From Desulfobulbaceae bacterium (lineage in GTDB: Bacteria; Desulfobacterota; Desulfobulbia; Desulfobulbales; Desulfocapsaceae), in NCBI GenBank assembly GCA_008933635.1, contig WBUQ01000033.1, forward strand, positions 1 to 35,814: DNA of 35,814 bases. Reading direction: 5' to 3'. Below are positions 8,891 to 33,866 of this stretch, piece after piece. How positions within the stretch are numbered: the first letter of the stretch is position 1; each line of letters opens with the position of its first letter. The position numbers were made by a program, and so were the translations under genes. The notes beneath the pieces are model-generated. The model did no database searches and had not been told where the DNA came from. It was given only the letters and a program-made list of their open reading frames with translations.

Positions 8891-9247
8891 ATGAACGCCC
8901 TTTGCAGCCATTACAGCAGTTTCGCCGCCCGCCTCGCCCTGCTCTGCCTGCTCCTGCTTCCGGCAGCCCCGCTCTTCGCCACCCAGTATGAGGAGGACGT
9001 CTCGACCGGGGAATACCTCTTTGTCAAGGGTATGGTCCAGAAGATCTCCATGGAAGACAGGTCGCTGACGCTGCAGCAGAAAAGAGGCCCCCGCGTCACC
9101 ATCCGCGTCACCCCGGACACCGAGTTCGAGGGGGTCGCCAGACTGGAGGAGCTGCGGGCCAAGCAGGAGATCAAGGTCTGGTACCGGCCCGGAGAGGAGG
9201 GCAACGCCGGCCTGAAAATCCTCAAGCTGCCCGACCTGGGGTGCTGA
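8891..9247 (+). CDS. Small exported hypothetical protein
   Basis: This 118-residue protein begins with a cleavable signal peptide (hydrophobic LALLCLLLLPAAPLFA, likely cut after FATQ or nearby). The mature part of about 85 residues looks like a small beta-barrel of the OB or DUF5666 type: GEYLFVKGMVQKISMEDRSLTL, then VTIRVTPDTEFEG, LEELRAKQEIKVWYRPG, and LKILKLPDLGC. I chose the ATG at 8891 because GGGAGA precedes it and the signal peptide starts there; the in-frame codons upstream give no signal sequence. The protein is probably periplasmic. It stands alone on the plus strand and converges on porB. No function can be assigned. Confidence 0.75.
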   Translation: MNALCSHYSSFAARLALLCLLLLPAAPLFATQYEEDVSTGEYLFVKGMVQKISMEDRSLTLQQKRGPRVTIRVTPDTEFEGVARLEELRAKQEIKVWYRPGEEGNAGLKILKLPDLGC

Positions 9248-9258
9248 CGCCCCGGGCG

Positions 9259-9305
9259 ATGCCATTGAAGCGGGCTGCCCGACGGACGGCGGCGGGCAGC
9301 GGCAT
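9259..9305. terminator. Candidate bidirectional terminator hairpin
   Basis: Between two convergent stops, GCTGCCCG (9274-9281) pairs perfectly with CGGGCAGC (9293-9300), and an outer ATGCC/GGCAT pair (9259-9263 and 9301-9305) extends it. A second small inverted repeat, GCATGAG/CTCATGC (9302-9322), overlaps the porB stop. There is no clear T-run, so termination is inferred from position and structure only. Confidence 0.4.
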
Positions 9306-9316
9306 GAGGCGCTCTC

Positions 9317-10216
9317 TCATGCGGCCTGCGCCGCAAGCGTCGCCCACTTGGCGTCGACCTGCTGCTGGATCTGCTCCACCAGCTCCGGATCCAGCGACTT
9401 AAACCGCCCCTGGGTGGCGAAATACTCCTTGACCGGCCTGCGCTTGCCGCCGGCAACCCGCTGGGAGGGCGCAGAGAGCCTGAACACCCCGTTCTCGATC
9501 TCGTAGAGGTCGAAGAGCCCGGTCTCCACCGCCAGCTTCCCCACCTTGATCGTATACCTGGTATCGAAATTCCAGCCCGGCGGGCACGGGGTGTGGACGT
9601 GGATGTATTTCGGCCCGGCGATGGTGGTGGCCTTCTTCACCTTGTCATAGAGGTCGAGGGGGTAGGCCGCCGAGGCCGTGGCGACATAGGGAATGCCATG
9701 GGCGGCGATGATCGCCGGCACATCCTTCTTGGCCTGCAGCTTTCCCCTGATCGGCGTCGTCGTCGTCAGCACGCCCTGGGGGGTGGTGCCGGAACGCTGC
9801 ACGCCGGTGTTCATGTAGGCCTCGTTGTCGTAGCAGATGTAGATGATGTCCTCGCCCCGCTCGCAGGCCCCCGACAGGGCCTGGATGCCGATATCGCCGG
9901 TGCCGCCGTCGCCGGCCCAGGCCACCACGTTGACGTCGTCCTTGCCCAGGGCCTTCATCGCACCCCGCACGCCGGTCGCCGCCGCGCCGGTCGAGGCGAA
10001 GGTGACGTTGACGCAGGGCAGCTTGGTGGAGGCCACCGGGTAGAGCCCCTGCAGGACGGTGAGGCAGCTTGGCGGCACCACCAGGATGGTGTTTTTGCCC
10101 AGGGCCTTCAGGCCCATCCGGTAGACGATGGACAGCCCGCAGCCGGTGCAGGCCCGGTTGCCGGAGTGGACGAACTCTTCTTCGGTCAGGTTGACGATCG
10201 TTGTCTTCTCAGCCAT
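9317..10216 (-). CDS. porB: 2-oxoacid:ferredoxin oxidoreductase, beta (TPP) subunit
   Basis: This 299-residue protein is the thiamine-diphosphate-binding beta subunit of a pyruvate or 2-ketoisovalerate ferredoxin oxidoreductase. CTGCGLSIVYRMGLKAL near residue 18 supplies cysteines for a 4Fe-4S cluster, and further cysteines lie at YICYDNEAYMNTG and HTPCPPGWNF. The TPP motif is GDGGTGDIGIQALSGA followed by the conserved YDNEAYMNTGVQRSG. The start overlaps the end of porA by 8 bases, indicating translational coupling. It is the last gene of a porG-porD-porA-porB operon. The complex oxidatively decarboxylates a 2-oxo acid to an acyl-CoA and reduces ferredoxin in the cytoplasm. Whether pyruvate or branched 2-oxo acids are preferred is not visible here. 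Confidence 0.92.
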   Translation of the reverse strand: MAEKTTIVNLTEEEFVHSGNRACTGCGLSIVYRMGLKALGKNTILVVPPSCLTVLQGLYPVASTKLPCVNVTFASTGAAATGVRGAMKALGKDDVNVVAWAGDGGTGDIGIQALSGACERGEDIIYICYDNEAYMNTGVQRSGTTPQGVLTTTTPIRGKLQAKKDVPAIIAAHGIPYVATASAAYPLDLYDKVKKATTIAGPKYIHVHTPCPPGWNFDTRYTIKVGKLAVETGLFDLYEIENGVFRLSAPSQRVAGGKRRPVKEYFATQGRFKSLDPELVEQIQQQVDAKWATLAAQAA

Positions 10217-18386: not shown

Positions 18387-20453
18387 ATGAAGACGAAAGC
18401 GAAAACAGGCGCAGCACGAAAAGCGACCGCACCGGCAGCCGCCGGGCCGGGTCCCCGCATCACCAGCCAGGGCGTCCCCCGGGTCCTGAACGCCCGCCCC
18501 GACGGCATCGATTTCCGCGACCAGATGTACGTGCCGACCCTGGTGGAAGTCCCGCTCCACCGGGATCTCGCCGCCTACCGGGACAAACAGGCGCCGATCC
18601 TCGACCAGGGAAGCGAAGGTGCCTGCACCGGCTACGGCCTGGCCGCCGTGGCCAATTACCTGCTGCGGGTCAGAAAGGTCACTCCCGATCCGGTCCCCGT
18701 CAGCCCCCGCATGCTCTATGCCCTCGCCCGCCGCTACGACGAGTGGGCCGGCGAGGAGTACGAAGGGTCGAGCTGCCGGGGTGCGATGAAGGGCTGGTAC
18801 AAGCACGGCGTCTGCGCCGATGCCGTCTGGACCTCGGGTTCGGACATGCCCCCGGTGCTGAGCCACGACAGCGCGGTCGAGGCCGCCCGGCGCCCGCTGG
18901 GGGCGTATTTCCGCGTCAACCACAAGAGCCTGGTGGCCATGCATGCCGCCATCACCGAGACGGAGGTGCTCTACGCCAGCGCCATCGTGCACGAAGGCTG
19001 GAGCCGGGTCGGCCGGGACGGCATCATTCCCTACGCGCAGGAACCCCTGGGCGGCCATGCCTTCGCCATCGTCGCCTACGACCAGGACGGGTTCTGGATC
19101 CAGAACTCCTGGGGGGAGGACTGGGGATACGGAGGGTTCGCCAGGATCTCCTATCAGGACTGGCTCGAAAACGGCACCGACGTCTGGGTGGCGCGGCTCG
19201 GGGTGCCTGTCAACCTGCCGGAGACGACGCGGTCGGCGACTGTTTCCGTCGCCGGGGCCGTTCGCTCCAAGGCCTATCAGCTCAACGAGATCAGGCCGCA
19301 CGTCATCAGCCTGAAGAATGAAGGACAGCTCGACGAACGCGGCGACATCGGCACCTCGGAAGACATGGTCCGGGAGATCCTCCGCAACGATTTCCCGCGG
19401 ATCACCGGTGGGTGGGACAAGAGACGACTGGTGCTCTACGCCCACGGCGGGCTGGTCAGCCAGGATTCGGCCATCCAGCGGGTCTCCGACTACCGCAGGG
19501 CGATGCTGGAGGCCGGCTGCTACCCGCTGGCCTTCATCTGGAAGAGCGACTACTGGTCGACGCTGAAGAACATGCTGCAGGATGCGGCGCGACGGCGGCG
19601 GCCAGAAGGGTTCATCGACTCCGCCAAGGACTTTATGCTCGACCGCCTGGACGACGCCCTTGAACCGATCGCCCGCACCCTCACCGGCAAGGCGCAATGG
19701 GACGAGATGAAGGAAAACGCGATGAGAGCGACGACCACCCCGAAGGGCGGCGCGCGGCTGGTCGCCGACGAGATCGCCCTGCTGGCCCAGCGTTACCCCG
19801 ACCTGGAGATCCATGTGGTCGGCCACAGCGCCGGCAGCATCTTCCACGCCCCGCTGGTGCAGTATCTCTGCGCCGCACCGCCCGCCGCAGCCGGCACCGG
19901 GTCGCGGGCCAAGGCGGGCGGCCTCGGCCTGCCGGTGAAATCCTGCACCCTGTGGGCCCCGGCATGCACGACGGAGCTATTCAAGCAGTATTACCTGCCG
20001 CTGATCAAGGGCGGCGCCATCGGCAGATTCAACCTCTTCACCCTGACGGACGAGGCGGAACAGGACGACAACTGCGCTAGGATCTACAACAAATCGCTGT
20101 TGTACCTGGTCGCCCACGCCTTCGAAGAAGACCCGCGGATCCCCCTCATCCGACCCGACGGCAGCCCCATCCTGGGCATGGAAAAATTCATCAGCTCCGA
20201 CCGCGAACTCGCCGCACTGTTCGGCAAAAAAGGCCAGCCCGGGGTCGAATGGGTGCGTTCGCCGAACACTGAAGCGGTCGGCTCCGCCAATGCGGCCCGA
20301 TCCATCCACCATGGCGATTTCGACGACGATGACGCCACGGTGCGGTCGACGCTCGCCCGCATCCTGGACAGGGAATCGACCAAGACGGAGATCAGCTTCA
20401 AGCGCACGGCCCAGTCGCAGTTCAGCCTACGCCAGAACATCGCTGCGGCCTGA
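18387..20453 (+). CDS. Papain-like (C1) peptidase fused to an alpha/beta hydrolase
   Basis: This 688-residue protein has two enzymatic halves. Residues 40-270 form a papain-type peptidase: LDQGSEGACTGYGLAAVANY (oxyanion Gln and nucleophile Cys80), GGHAFAIVAYDQ (His224), and WIQNSWGEDWGYGGF (Asn240). Residues 350-640 resemble an alpha/beta hydrolase: LVLYAHGGLVSQ (oxyanion loop) and VVGHSAGSIFHAP with nucleophile Ser481; acid and His candidates lie in FTLTDEAEQDD and SIHHGDFDDDD. The N-terminus is low-complexity (Lys, Ala) with no signal peptide. I placed the start at ATG 18387, preceded by AGGAG; the frame is open upstream only as a shadow of the EEP gene. The combination with an EEP gene is unusual. 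Function is unknown; a conflict-type effector or a degradative enzyme are both possible. Confidence 0.8.
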   Translation: MKTKAKTGAARKATAPAAAGPGPRITSQGVPRVLNARPDGIDFRDQMYVPTLVEVPLHRDLAAYRDKQAPILDQGSEGACTGYGLAAVANYLLRVRKVTPDPVPVSPRMLYALARRYDEWAGEEYEGSSCRGAMKGWYKHGVCADAVWTSGSDMPPVLSHDSAVEAARRPLGAYFRVNHKSLVAMHAAITETEVLYASAIVHEGWSRVGRDGIIPYAQEPLGGHAFAIVAYDQDGFWIQNSWGEDWGYGGFARISYQDWLENGTDVWVARLGVPVNLPETTRSATVSVAGAVRSKAYQLNEIRPHVISLKNEGQLDERGDIGTSEDMVREILRNDFPRITGGWDKRRLVLYAHGGLVSQDSAIQRVSDYRRAMLEAGCYPLAFIWKSDYWSTLKNMLQDAARRRRPEGFIDSAKDFMLDRLDDALEPIARTLTGKAQWDEMKENAMRATTTPKGGARLVADEIALLAQRYPDLEIHVVGHSAGSIFHAPLVQYLCAAPPAAAGTGSRAKAGGLGLPVKSCTLWAPACTTELFKQYYLPLIKGGAIGRFNLFTLTDEAEQDDNCARIYNKSLLYLVAHAFEEDPRIPLIRPDGSPILGMEKFISSDRELAALFGKKGQPGVEWVRSPNTEAVGSANAARSIHHGDFDDDDATVRSTLARILDRESTKTEISFKRTAQSQFSLRQNIAAA

Positions 20454-20503
20454 CCGACGGCCCACCTGCTGCCGGATGCGATCCGGCGGCAGGCCAGGGC
20501 CGG

Positions 20504-20790
20504 CTCCTCAGCGAATGCATGGTCGACGGCCAGATCCGCTCGGTCCTCGCCTGGTCAAGACCTTTTGCCAACGGCGAGGTCCTGTGCGCCATCAACACCG
20601 ACACCCTGTCGATACGCTGACGACCTGGGTGACCATTAACGCCTCGCTGCACCAGATGTCCGCACCAAACCTGACGCGCCTCTACTCAAGCGACGTCGGC
20701 GTCGCACCGAACTCTGTGCCGGTTGAAGATGTCAACGGCAAGGAGGTCTTTCTGACAGTCCCTCCCTGCGGTTTTGTAGTCTATGGGTAA
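20504..20790 (+). pseudogene. Remnant of a GH13 alpha-amylase C-terminal domain, frameshifted
   Basis: Two frames each carry part of the C-terminal beta-sandwich of a glycoside hydrolase 13 alpha-amylase. The first, ending at about 20620, reads MVDGQIRSVLAWSRPF and GEVLCAINTDT; it stops at TGA. The second frame resumes at about 20619 with TTWVTINASLHQ and continues to EDVNGKEVFLTVPPCGFVVY before a TAA at 20790. The order and wording match the end of bacterial alpha-amylases as I remember them. The catalytic domain is missing and there is a frameshift, so it is a fossil. It abuts the 3' end of the peptidase-hydrolase gene, marking a recombination scar. Confidence 0.7.
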
Positions 20791-21142
20791 TTGAAGAGGA
20801 ACACACGCCTGGGGTGGAAAGACTAAGACATGTGCTCAAATGAAACGGGGGGAGCGATGAAAGTAATAACAGGATTTGCGTAGTATCCAACTTTGTTATA
20901 ACACGGGATATTGCGCATATTCGCGCGCAACCGATCCTGACAATATAATCTTGCAGCCTGACAAGTGTTTCGATAGTATGCCCAAAAATGATGATAATTC
21001 TGGAGGATGGAATACAAGAACTGCCTTAAGCGTGGAAAAGATGTCGATGAATGAATGGCAAAAACTGCTTAATCGAGACAAACGCGACTGCGGTTTTTGA
21101 GCTTCACTGCCCGAAATTAGGTGTCTTGATATTATACGTTTT
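20791..21142. other. AT-rich spacer, no convincing gene
   Basis: From about 20800 the sequence becomes visibly AT-rich. A short frame on the plus strand (20876-21100, TTG start; or ATG 20978, ending MNEWQKLLNRDKRDCGF) could be a small or partial protein, but it lacks a good ribosome site and I do not recognise it. TATTAT at 21130-21135 is close enough to the next ATG to suggest a leaderless start. Confidence 0.4.
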
Positions 21143-22087
21143 ATGAAAAAAAGACCTCAAATACTATATAAGTATTTCATCGAAGAGAGAGTTGATATTC
21201 TCGAAAATGGGCTAATTCGATATACACAACCAGGGCTTTTCAATGATCCATTTGAGGCATTCCCATACTTAAAGTCCATAACAAATACTGATATAATTGA
21301 TGAATATTCTAACAAAATAGATGATCAGGATTCAGGAATAAAACAGAGGATATTCGAAATCATTGAAAATGATAGTCAATTTAAAAGCCTTCCCGCTCAT
21401 CAAAAAGTTCTAGCCCGTCGTATGGTCGAAGCTAATGCAGACTCAGCTATCTCCAAGTTTGCGCCTATGGCAAAAGAGCTTTTTAGATCTTCCATGAAGC
21501 TTGAAGGTCCAGCTGGAAAGGAAATGATCAAAAGATTTGTAAATGCTGTTAATAGTACAATTGGTATACTGTGTCTAACAGATACGTACAAAAACCTTTT
21601 AATGTGGTCGCATTATGCAAATAGCCACAAAGGTTTTGTATTAGGCTTTAATACAGATCATAAGATTTTCAATAAATCTGATTCTAATTTCGGATTGTTT
21701 GGCTATTTAAAGGATGTTCGATACACAAGAAAACGTCCTGAAACAATTTTTTTTGACACTAGAAAAGATAAAGAATCAAATCTTGATAACTGGGTCAAGA
21801 ACTTTATTTGGGTGAAAAGCAGTCATTGGAGGTATGAAAATGAGTGGAGAATACTTGAGCAGTTAACAATGTCATTCACTCAGATTAAAGTAAACGGTGA
21901 GCTTATCCATCTTTACAAAATCCCATTCGATGCAATACACTGTATATACCTTGGATGCAAAATGCCAAATGAGCAAAAGAATAAAATCTCTAATATTATA
22001 AATGATAATAGTAGCTTGAAGCATATCACAATTATTCAAGCCGAAATGGACGATAAAGAATACAAGCTAAATTTCAAAATAATATAA
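21143..22087 (+). CDS. DUF2971 domain protein in an AT-rich island
   Basis: This 314-residue protein matches the DUF2971 family: ILYKYFIEERVDILENGLIR, then YTQPGLFNDPFEAFPYL near residue 30, ILCLTDTYKNLLMWSHYANS with HKGFVLGFNTD near 150, and SSHWRYENEWRILEQ near 235. No biochemical role is established that I know of; such genes are often found among accessory or defence genes. It is visibly AT-rich, with AT-ending codons unlike every neighbour, so it is almost certainly acquired. No clear ribosome site precedes the ATG; a TATTAT box lies only seven bases upstream. It is followed directly by a GGGGTCCGTCCCC element. There is no signal peptide or membrane segment. Confidence 0.85.
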   Translation: MKKRPQILYKYFIEERVDILENGLIRYTQPGLFNDPFEAFPYLKSITNTDIIDEYSNKIDDQDSGIKQRIFEIIENDSQFKSLPAHQKVLARRMVEANADSAISKFAPMAKELFRSSMKLEGPAGKEMIKRFVNAVNSTIGILCLTDTYKNLLMWSHYANSHKGFVLGFNTDHKIFNKSDSNFGLFGYLKDVRYTRKRPETIFFDTRKDKESNLDNWVKNFIWVKSSHWRYENEWRILEQLTMSFTQIKVNGELIHLYKIPFDAIHCIYLGCKMPNEQKNKISNIINDNSSLKHITIIQAEMDDKEYKLNFKII

Positions 22088-32540: not shown

Positions 32541-33866
32541 CTATTTGAAGCGATAGGTGAAGGTCAGCATCCCCGAGGCGGCATAGTCGGTCTCCAGGCC
32601 ATACCAGTTCACGTCCTGGTACAGGGGTCGCCCGTAACTGCCGTTGATGGTGAAGTTGCCGCCCAAGGCCGACAGAAAGCGCCAGCTGCCGACCGCGGTC
32701 AGGGTGACCGCCTCGCCGCCGCTGTTGTCCATGGTTATCCCATTGAATTCGTTCTTGCTCGTGTCGGTGGCGTCCAGTTCCAGGCCGACCATGACGTCGT
32801 AATTCGGGGTGTAGTGGACCGCCATCCCCAGTTTGGCGATGTCGCCGAAGTCGTAATCGTCGTCATTCTCCGGGTTATACAGGTAACTGAGTTCTCCGTG
32901 CAGCCAGAAGTCCCCGAAGCGGAGGGAGCCCAGCAGGCCGCCGCCAGCTCCGAAAGTGCCGGTGCCGGTCTGCAGGCCCGGCATGTTGGTTGTGGCATTG
33001 GCATACTCGGTGTCGAAGTCGCCGGTCGGCAGGGTGACATTCGCCATCACGGTGACAAATTTGCTGTAGTACGCATCCCGCCACAGGTTGTAGCGCAGTT
33101 TCAGATCGAGGTCGCTGATGCCGTCATTGTCCCTGACCCTGTCGGTATGCATCCCGGACGGCAACCAGACGTCCGTGGTCATTTCCTTGTCGAGATAGGC
33201 GATCTTGGCCATCAGGGACAATGTGTCGGTGAAGCCGTAATTCGCCATCATCATGACCGCGGAGGACTCCATCTCCTTGGGGGCCATCCGTCTGCCGGTC
33301 CGGGCATTGAACTCGGCGATGGAGACATCGTCGTCTCCCATCTTCAGGTCATCCATCTTCATGGCCATGAACCCGATGCCGATGTTGCTGGAACCCTTGG
33401 GTTGCGGCACCGCCGAAAGCACGCGGTTGGGCATGGTCATGCCCATCGGTGAAACAGCCTGCAGGGCCTGATCGAAGGTGAGGATTTCGCCGCCGTGTTC
33501 GGCCTTGAACGTCCTGGCATCGTCCTCGCTGGCAAAAGCGATGAAGTTTGGGATCATATCGGGGACCTTGTCACTGCCGACAACGTACACCGCACTCGCT
33601 GCCGTCACCTCCCTGCCGCTTGCCCAGTCATGGACGGTGACCGAAGAAAAATCGCCGGGACCGCCGGTATCGGTCACCAGCCGCAGCATGTCGGCGACCC
33701 CGCAGGTCTTTTCCATGGAACCGTCCCTGCTGGTCAGAGTGGCGCTCGTCGCCTGATAGAGGTCGATGTACATGCCGCACAGCTTGCAGCTCTCCCGTTC
33801 TTCAGCGTGGGCCGCCGAGGCAAGCAGCAGGACCGCAGTCATAAGTACTCCGTACCGTTTCACCAT
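32541..33866 (-). CDS. NosL domain fused to an outer-membrane beta-barrel
   Basis: This 441-residue exported protein has a signal peptide (cleavage after AHA, residue 21). Residues 25-145 form a NosL-like domain: CKLCGMYIDLYQ (C27xxC30GM, copper-binding in NosL), FIAFASEDDARTFKAEHGGE (the typical mid region), and MGMTMPNRV. From about 160 to the end there is an outer-membrane barrel of the Phenol_MetA_deg/transporter type: alternating strands such as MMMANYGFTDTLSLMAKIAY, LDLKLRYNLWRD, GELSYLYNPEN, and a terminal aromatic strand ending TFTYRFK. NosL normally is a separate lipoprotein that delivers copper to nitrous-oxide reductase; no nos genes are visible nearby. The Met-rich stretch (FMAMKMDDLKMG) could bind copper. 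The start at 33866 has GGGGGG upstream. Confidence 0.82.
   Translation of the reverse strand: MVKRYGVLMTAVLLLASAAHAEERESCKLCGMYIDLYQATSATLTSRDGSMEKTCGVADMLRLVTDTGGPGDFSSVTVHDWASGREVTAASAVYVVGSDKVPDMIPNFIAFASEDDARTFKAEHGGEILTFDQALQAVSPMGMTMPNRVLSAVPQPKGSSNIGIGFMAMKMDDLKMGDDDVSIAEFNARTGRRMAPKEMESSAVMMMANYGFTDTLSLMAKIAYLDKEMTTDVWLPSGMHTDRVRDNDGISDLDLKLRYNLWRDAYYSKFVTVMANVTLPTGDFDTEYANATTNMPGLQTGTGTFGAGGGLLGSLRFGDFWLHGELSYLYNPENDDDYDFGDIAKLGMAVHYTPNYDVMVGLELDATDTSKNEFNGITMDNSGGEAVTLTAVGSWRFLSALGGNFTINGSYGRPLYQDVNWYGLETDYAASGMLTFTYRFK

Follow-up and report, generated by a model that had tools for sequence, protein, structure and literature searches.

A NosL domain fused to a COG4313-fold barrel: a candidate outer-membrane copper channel with a tethered chaperone

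Gene and domain architecture

We analyzed a 35,814-nucleotide stretch of Desulfobulbaceae DNA (contig WBUQ01000033.1 of assembly GCA_008933635.1), referred to below as the window. Positions 32541–33866 of its minus strand contain an uninterrupted open reading frame that starts with ATG and encodes 441 residues followed by a stop codon. The protein begins with a predicted Sec signal peptide (residues 1–21; 33804–33866), read by eye, that has no lipobox by a regular expression search. The signal peptide is followed by a NosL domain (residues 22–138; 33453–33803), a linker that may be plug-like and carries M141, M143, and M145 (residues 135–158; 33393–33464), and a β-barrel extending to the C-terminus (residues 159–441; 32544–33392). 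Pfam assigns residues 21–134 to NosL (PF05573; E 4.3e-19, 69.6 bits against a cut-off of 24) and residues 208–398 to Phenol_MetA_deg (PF13557; E 1.5e-6, 28.9 bits against a cut-off of 22). These are the only Pfam matches at E<=1, with neither a TonB plug or receptor domain nor a CopB match at that threshold, and an NCBIfam search of the 441-residue protein returned no match at E<=1. The CKLCGM motif of the NosL domain (residues 27–32; 33771–33788) starts at the sixth residue past the likely signal-peptide cleavage site, as read by eye.

The initial annotation had described a signal peptide, a NosL domain, and an outer-membrane-type barrel in one polypeptide. This architecture holds, as both Pfam domains score over their cut-offs and both folds appear in a single predicted model. 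The barrel had also been said to end in an aromatic strand; F440 is indeed aromatic, but the last residue is K441. The description of the locus as free of nos genes agrees with our inspection by eye of the window's gene calls, which come from a crude gene picker that placed some genes on the wrong strand, and the fusion is the only NosL match in the window. By eye, no recognizable copper gene adjoins the window copy, and its neighbors look unrelated to copper. Scans for promoters and terminators gave only consensus-like matches. Elsewhere in the window, the G+C content drops to 0.466 at positions 20001–22000, against 0.58–0.67 in the other 2-kb windows, and a 314-residue open reading frame (21143–22087) that starts within this stretch looks like a foreign insert.

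Predicted structure

The AlphaFold2 model, built on the alignment of 27 homologs (A1), has a mean pLDDT of 88.2 and a pTM of 0.79. Its N-terminal domain (model residues 23–138) superimposes on the NosL structure 7og7 with a Z score of 15.9 and an rmsd of 2.3 over 116 residues at 27% identity (Foldseek, VIA-align). In the same model, the barrel matches 4rl8, a COG4313 channel, with Z 27.5 and an rmsd of 2.0 over 253 residues and FapF 5o65 with Z 26.0 and an rmsd of 2.4 over 259 residues, and the match to PcoB 7pge falls far under the COG4313 score (Z 13.1, rmsd 3.8, 186 residues; all VIA-align). A fusion member from another family of the same phylum (genome G050) was modeled with lower confidence (pLDDT 80.9, pTM 0.67) and gives Z 26.9 to 4rl8 and Z 16.3 to 7og7. 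Hence, structure prediction, which had been proposed as a check, returned a NosL fold for the N-terminal part and a barrel for the C-terminal part.

DSSP defines 13 barrel strand segments joined by periplasmic turns that are short and outer loops that are mostly longer; we read segments 240–250 and 253–263 as one broken strand, which would give a barrel of 12 strands. Model residues 135–438 align with FapF residues 89–406 (VIA-align) and thus reach the FapF plug region, where the confidence of the model is modest: the pLDDT of this block is 66–85 in the window model, about 66 at its lowest, and 46 in the G050 model. FapF has its lumen plugged by a helix that precedes strand 1 (PMC5557850), and in COG4313 channels the lumen is filled by the N-terminus (PMC4493636). 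Because the FapF alignment starts at residue 135, segment 135–158 with M141, M143, and M145 may occupy the plug position.

Predicted copper-binding residues and the conserved methionines

C27, C30, and M32 of the CKLCGM motif are invariant in all 27 aligned rows, as are C55 and M104 (33555–33557). A phmmer search against PDB sequences found the NosL of the NosDFYL complex (7znq, 7osf) and the NosL of Shewanella (7og7), and in these alignments M104 pairs with a methionine of the solved NosL. CXXCXM is described as the motif of clade II NosL, with one further methionine that is absolutely conserved in NosL (PMC6530538). Two histidines in the barrel, H323 and H351, are likewise invariant across the 27 rows.

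A methionine-rich segment had been pointed out in the initial annotation, and we counted 21 methionines in the 303 residues from 139 onward. Nine methionine columns (143, 145, 167, 169, 194, 199, 205, 207, and 229), located in the plug segment and strands 1–3, are kept in 23–26 of the 27 rows, and M141 is kept in 19. Methionine makes up 4.9–7.9% of the plug and barrel in 24 rows and 1.9–3.8% in the other three. The member at locus L003 lacks all ten columns, and those at L009 and L075 lack seven each; the member that lies in a nos gene cluster is among these three. Hence, the methionine track is not universal in the family. In strand 1, the conserved methionines share the non-lipid, polar face (mean hydropathy calculated without methionine, 0.83 vs −0.89), placing them on the lumen side. 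This assignment is clear for strand 1 only; strand 3 points weakly the same way and strand 2 gives neither side. M194 is on the opposite face from M199, M205, and M207. A methionine ladder running between the outer face and the plug would, by analogy, resemble the methionine track for Cu(I) described in OprC (PMC8610252).

Classical NosL is a lipid-anchored lipoprotein (PMC7558416). A lipobox, sought by regular expression from start codons chosen by script, is missing in 26 of the 27 rows including the window protein, and the L003 member alone has one. The barrel would hold the NosL domain at the outer membrane in place of a lipid anchor.

Distribution and origin of the fusion

A scan of genome contigs found relatives in two Desulfobulbaceae MAGs (about 70% identity) and in one Nitrospira defluvii MAG (44%), together with one partial copy. 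In the class of the window, 32 of 257 genomes match the fusion at E<=1e-15; four of these have NosL-only matches (G341, G357, G452, and G464) and 28, the window's own genome included, carry at least part of the fusion, with a full-length copy in 25. These 25 copies, the G050 member, and the Nitrospira member at L003 (genome G496) make up the 27 rows of A1. L001 (G494) and L002 (G495) duplicate the records of the G407 and G493 copies, and each was counted once. Three defective copies were left out of A1: that of G444 is broken into two halves in different frames (L073, G444:C13:9262-10486), that of G406 lacks its 5' part (L076, G406:C68), and that of G366 runs off its contig and was used in the NosL tree only. 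Four further genomes from the genus of the window were covered, and none has the fusion at E<=1e-15. Among 295 drawn Nitrospirota genomes, only the known one has it and one more has a NosL-only match, and a plasmid collection gave no match. The distribution is therefore patchy. Since 27 full-length members share the same architecture, the fusion recurs as the suggested homolog search had asked, and a frameshift or a chimeric assembly as the source of a fusion unique to this genome is ruled out.

In a NosL tree of 115 columns with an arbitrary root, containing 43 stand-alone NosL rows gathered as matches to the fusion, the 28 fusion halves (the 27 rows and the G366 fragment) form one group with support of 95/90 that recurs in 93% of bootstrap trees. 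The fusion barrels also form one group (100/98) in a tree that rests on five stand-alone barrels with long branches. Because the NosL halves group together, a single origin of the fusion is likely, though not proven, and one fusion event followed by transfer and loss would be the simplest reading.

Relation to nitrous oxide reduction and stand-alone NosL

The NosZ search covered 32 genome entries, equal to 30 distinct genomes (three with broken or cut copies), of which 21 entries reach 90% completeness with contamination of 5% or less. With a clade II-type NosZ model, G050 alone among the 32 entries scored over the cut-off (803 bits); as G494 and G495 repeat G407 and G493, NosZ is found in one of 30 distinct genomes. 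The other NosZ model placed none of the 30 genomes over its cut-off and gave a strong match in G050 only. Six further entries have weak sub-cut-off matches over the CuA end only, which we read as COX2-like. The genome of the window (G000), for which a nosZ check had been recommended, has no NosZ over the cut-off of either model; its single weak match is CuA-like only. Absence of NosZ is not final in every case, since several genomes are incomplete.

In G050 (L039), the fusion is part of a nos cluster with the order nosZ, nosD, nosF, a NosL-like gene, nosY, a thioredoxin-like gene, two more NosL genes, and the fusion; the NosL-like gene after nosF carries a lipobox by eye, and the thioredoxin-like gene was also named by eye. 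Downstream of the fusion lie genes for an FtsX-like permease, a LolD-like ATPase, and a membrane protein, and the entire array spans L039:340-14707 (G050:C145). The earlier suggestion of a protein not tied to nitrous oxide reduction is thus borne out for most of the family but is not general, because of the G050 fusion.

NosL had been introduced as normally a protein of denitrifiers. This did not hold in our sample: the query matches in 48 of 247 genomes of the phylum, mostly as NosL-only matches, and among these 48 the NosZ search covers the fusion-bearing entries and the window's own genome. The latter has two stand-alone NosL genes elsewhere and no NosZ over cut-off. One of them, in L040, is downstream of an RND pump gene and has no lipobox by eye. 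A module of an FtsX-like permease, a LolD-like ATPase, and a polytopic membrane protein recurs near NosL genes at L003:1212-5196, L039:7521-14707, and L040:4316-7891, and two of these loci also contain a thioredoxin-like gene. At the Nitrospira locus (L003), permease, ATPase, membrane protein, NosL, and thioredoxin-like genes are upstream of the fusion, and at L040 the module is downstream of the RND pump gene. The membrane protein of the L039 copy has no Pfam match at E<=1e-5.

Regulators and other neighbors

In nine of the 27 fusion loci (L001, L002, L089, L098, L101, L102, L103, L105, and L070), RegB/RegA-like genes, relatives of the L001 kinase and regulator, are located upstream of the fusion on the same strand. 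Pfam, applied to the L001 proteins, detects HATPase_c in the kinase and a receiver plus a Fis-type HTH in the regulator. At L002, a gene named by eye as NRAMP-like lies between the RegB/RegA-like genes and the fusion. The GGxxNPF motif, described for quinone sensing by RegB (PMC8191878), is present in seven of the nine kinases, and the reads of the other two kinases are cut. A RegB/RegA system of a methanotroph promotes iron uptake (PMC13274454) and so provides a precedent for redox control of metal uptake. These gene arrangements suggest that redox control of the RegB/RegA type may operate in part of the family. A universal link is ruled out by the count of nine in 27 and by the window gene, which none of these genes adjoins. 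In the window's own genome, no match covers the sensor part of the L001 kinase (residues 1–168) among the 78 matches listed.

COX1 (PF00115, E<=1e-20), a family that also covers NO reductases, occurs in nine of the 28 fusion-bearing genomes and in 82 of the 229 other genomes of the class (Fisher p 0.84). A dedicated haem-copper-oxidase chaperone is therefore unsupported, and an obvious general client is missing. Two loci have pump-gene neighbors, each a single case among the 17 loci inspected: at L089 (G490), an RND pump gene 25–29% like CusBA-type queries lies on the opposite strand at a distance of about 1.1 kb, and at L093, a P-type ATPase gene, recognized by eye and with no metal assigned, is downstream. 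By eye, no further copper-efflux operon or MerR-type regulator adjoins the fusion in these 17 loci, in L001, L002, L003, and L039, or in the window.

Among stand-alone barrels, the nearest relatives were taken as the top barrel matches and are not a random sample. Four were read in frame for methionine counts, and a fifth (the L024 region, equal to L048) entered the tree only. Methionine-richness unique to the fusion is ruled out, as three of the four contain 4.6–5.7% methionine and the fourth 2.2%. Neighborhoods were read for the barrels of G061, G090, and G119. The G061 barrel (5.7% methionine) is near YHS, HMA, and DsbD_TM genes; the G090 barrel (2.2%) is near genes for a P-type ATPase with YHS, MerR, MerT, and HMA; and the methionine-rich G119 barrel is upstream of a thioredoxin-like gene.

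Discussion

From the domains, the predicted folds, and the conserved residues, we infer that the fusion protein resides in the outer membrane, binds copper, and transports it. The reading that we favor, to which we would give an even chance of being right, is an outer-membrane channel of the COG4313 fold with its own periplasmic Cu(I) chaperone of the NosL type. Cu(I) would be gathered in the methionine-lined lumen of the barrel and would then pass through the methionine-rich segment before strand 1, at the place of the FapF plug and of the lumen-inserted COG4313 N-terminus. The high-affinity NosL domain would take the Cu(I), act as a sink, and hand the copper to periplasmic clients. The client probably differs between genomes and is probably NosZ in G050. 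Uptake is the direction that we prefer and is probably correct, on three grounds: NosL is a delivery protein needed when copper is limiting; the one telling operon, that of G050, is for a cuproenzyme; and a chaperone that binds very tightly can be the sink for a passive pore. A more specific version is tentative: a copper importer independent of TonB, in which a passive methionine-lined channel owes its direction to a fused chaperone that binds Cu(I) with very high affinity and acts as the sink, occurring mainly in NosZ-lacking bacteria of the window's class and partly under RegB/RegA-like redox control.

The same parts could work in reverse, with the NosL domain collecting excess periplasmic Cu(I), or another soft metal, for expulsion through the barrel, as proposed for PcoB/CopB. 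Such a role in efflux and detoxification is conceivable because related barrels have metal-resistance surroundings and because of the PcoB analogy: two of the nearest stand-alone barrels (G061 and G090) are in metal clusters, the G090 one without being methionine-rich, PcoB 7pge is among the fold matches, and RND pump genes lie close to the fusion in L089 and upstream of the stand-alone NosL gene in L040. We nevertheless consider it rather doubtful. Read by eye, the inspected flanks show neither a further copper-efflux operon nor a MerR-type regulator beside the fusion, although a P-type ATPase gene does follow it at L093; the adjacent regulators, where present, are RegB/RegA-like, and the G050 operon serves cuproenzyme assembly. 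A chaperone of attomolar affinity would furthermore seem a poor donor to a passive pore.

In a further explanation, the protein would be a dedicated assembly factor whose barrel chiefly anchors it in the outer membrane, in place of the lipid anchor of classical NosL, with the pore unused for metal. The absence of a lipobox from 26 of 27 rows, compared with the lipid-anchored classical NosL (PMC7558416), fits this idea, as does the solved COG4313 barrel, which is nearly occluded by its own N-terminus (PMC4493636). We consider it unlikely, as the conserved methionines and the invariant H323 and H351 exceed the needs of an anchor, and the L040 NosL, itself without a lipobox, argues that a substitute anchor is not obligatory. 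Alternatively, the barrel could retain the ordinary COG4313 role and take up a hydrophobic or chelated compound, with the NosL domain binding a metal–ligand complex or a non-copper metal that reacts with thiols. Members of COG4313 have been linked to the uptake of hydrophobic molecules (PMC4493636), and this supposed cargo of the solved channel counts against the copper-channel reading; a related stand-alone barrel near MerT and HMA genes also speaks for this explanation. Against such cargo stand the known Cu(I) residues of NosL, kept in all 27 rows, and the methionine enrichment, which would suit Cu(I), and we regard it as the least probable of these alternatives.

Both domains are known, and we found no paper on a NosL–barrel fusion, and hence no report of the combination, in the open-access PMC literature. 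With NosL (PF05573; 7og7, 7znq), the protein shares the fold, the CxxCGM motif of the clade II type, the second conserved methionine, and export; it differs in the missing lipobox, in having a barrel, and in the absence of NosZ over cut-off from 31 of 32 entries. The barrel fold is that of the COG4313 channel Pput2725 (4rl8) and FapF (5o65), with the segment before strand 1 at the FapF plug site, whereas the N-terminal NosL domain and the conserved methionine columns are particular to the fusion, whose substrate is probably a metal. PcoB/CopB (7pge) also has an N-terminal part before a small barrel, in its case a methionine-rich tail, and a copper theme. The fusion matches COG4313 better and has a folded NosL domain in place of that tail.

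OprC/NosA, as a working analogy, is likewise an outer-membrane barrel proposed for copper intake with a methionine track, and the fusion differs in its small barrel and attached chaperone. The route of ionic copper across the Gram-negative outer membrane is presented as unclear in PMC8610252 and PMC7558416, in which OprC/NosA is the described dedicated transporter. The architecture reported here points to a route for copper through this membrane that is little known. If the favored reading is true, such a chaperone-bearing channel would represent a second solution to copper intake, one in which TonB is not needed, and it would help explain NosL domains in bacteria without nitrous oxide reductase.

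Stand-alone methionine-rich barrels are located at L042 (about 9195-9875), L047:6933-8006, and L027, with PF13557 matches for the L042/L012 and L047 barrels. The L042 and L047 barrels have HMA, YHS, DsbD_TM, or thioredoxin-like genes in their vicinity and could likewise form metal channels.
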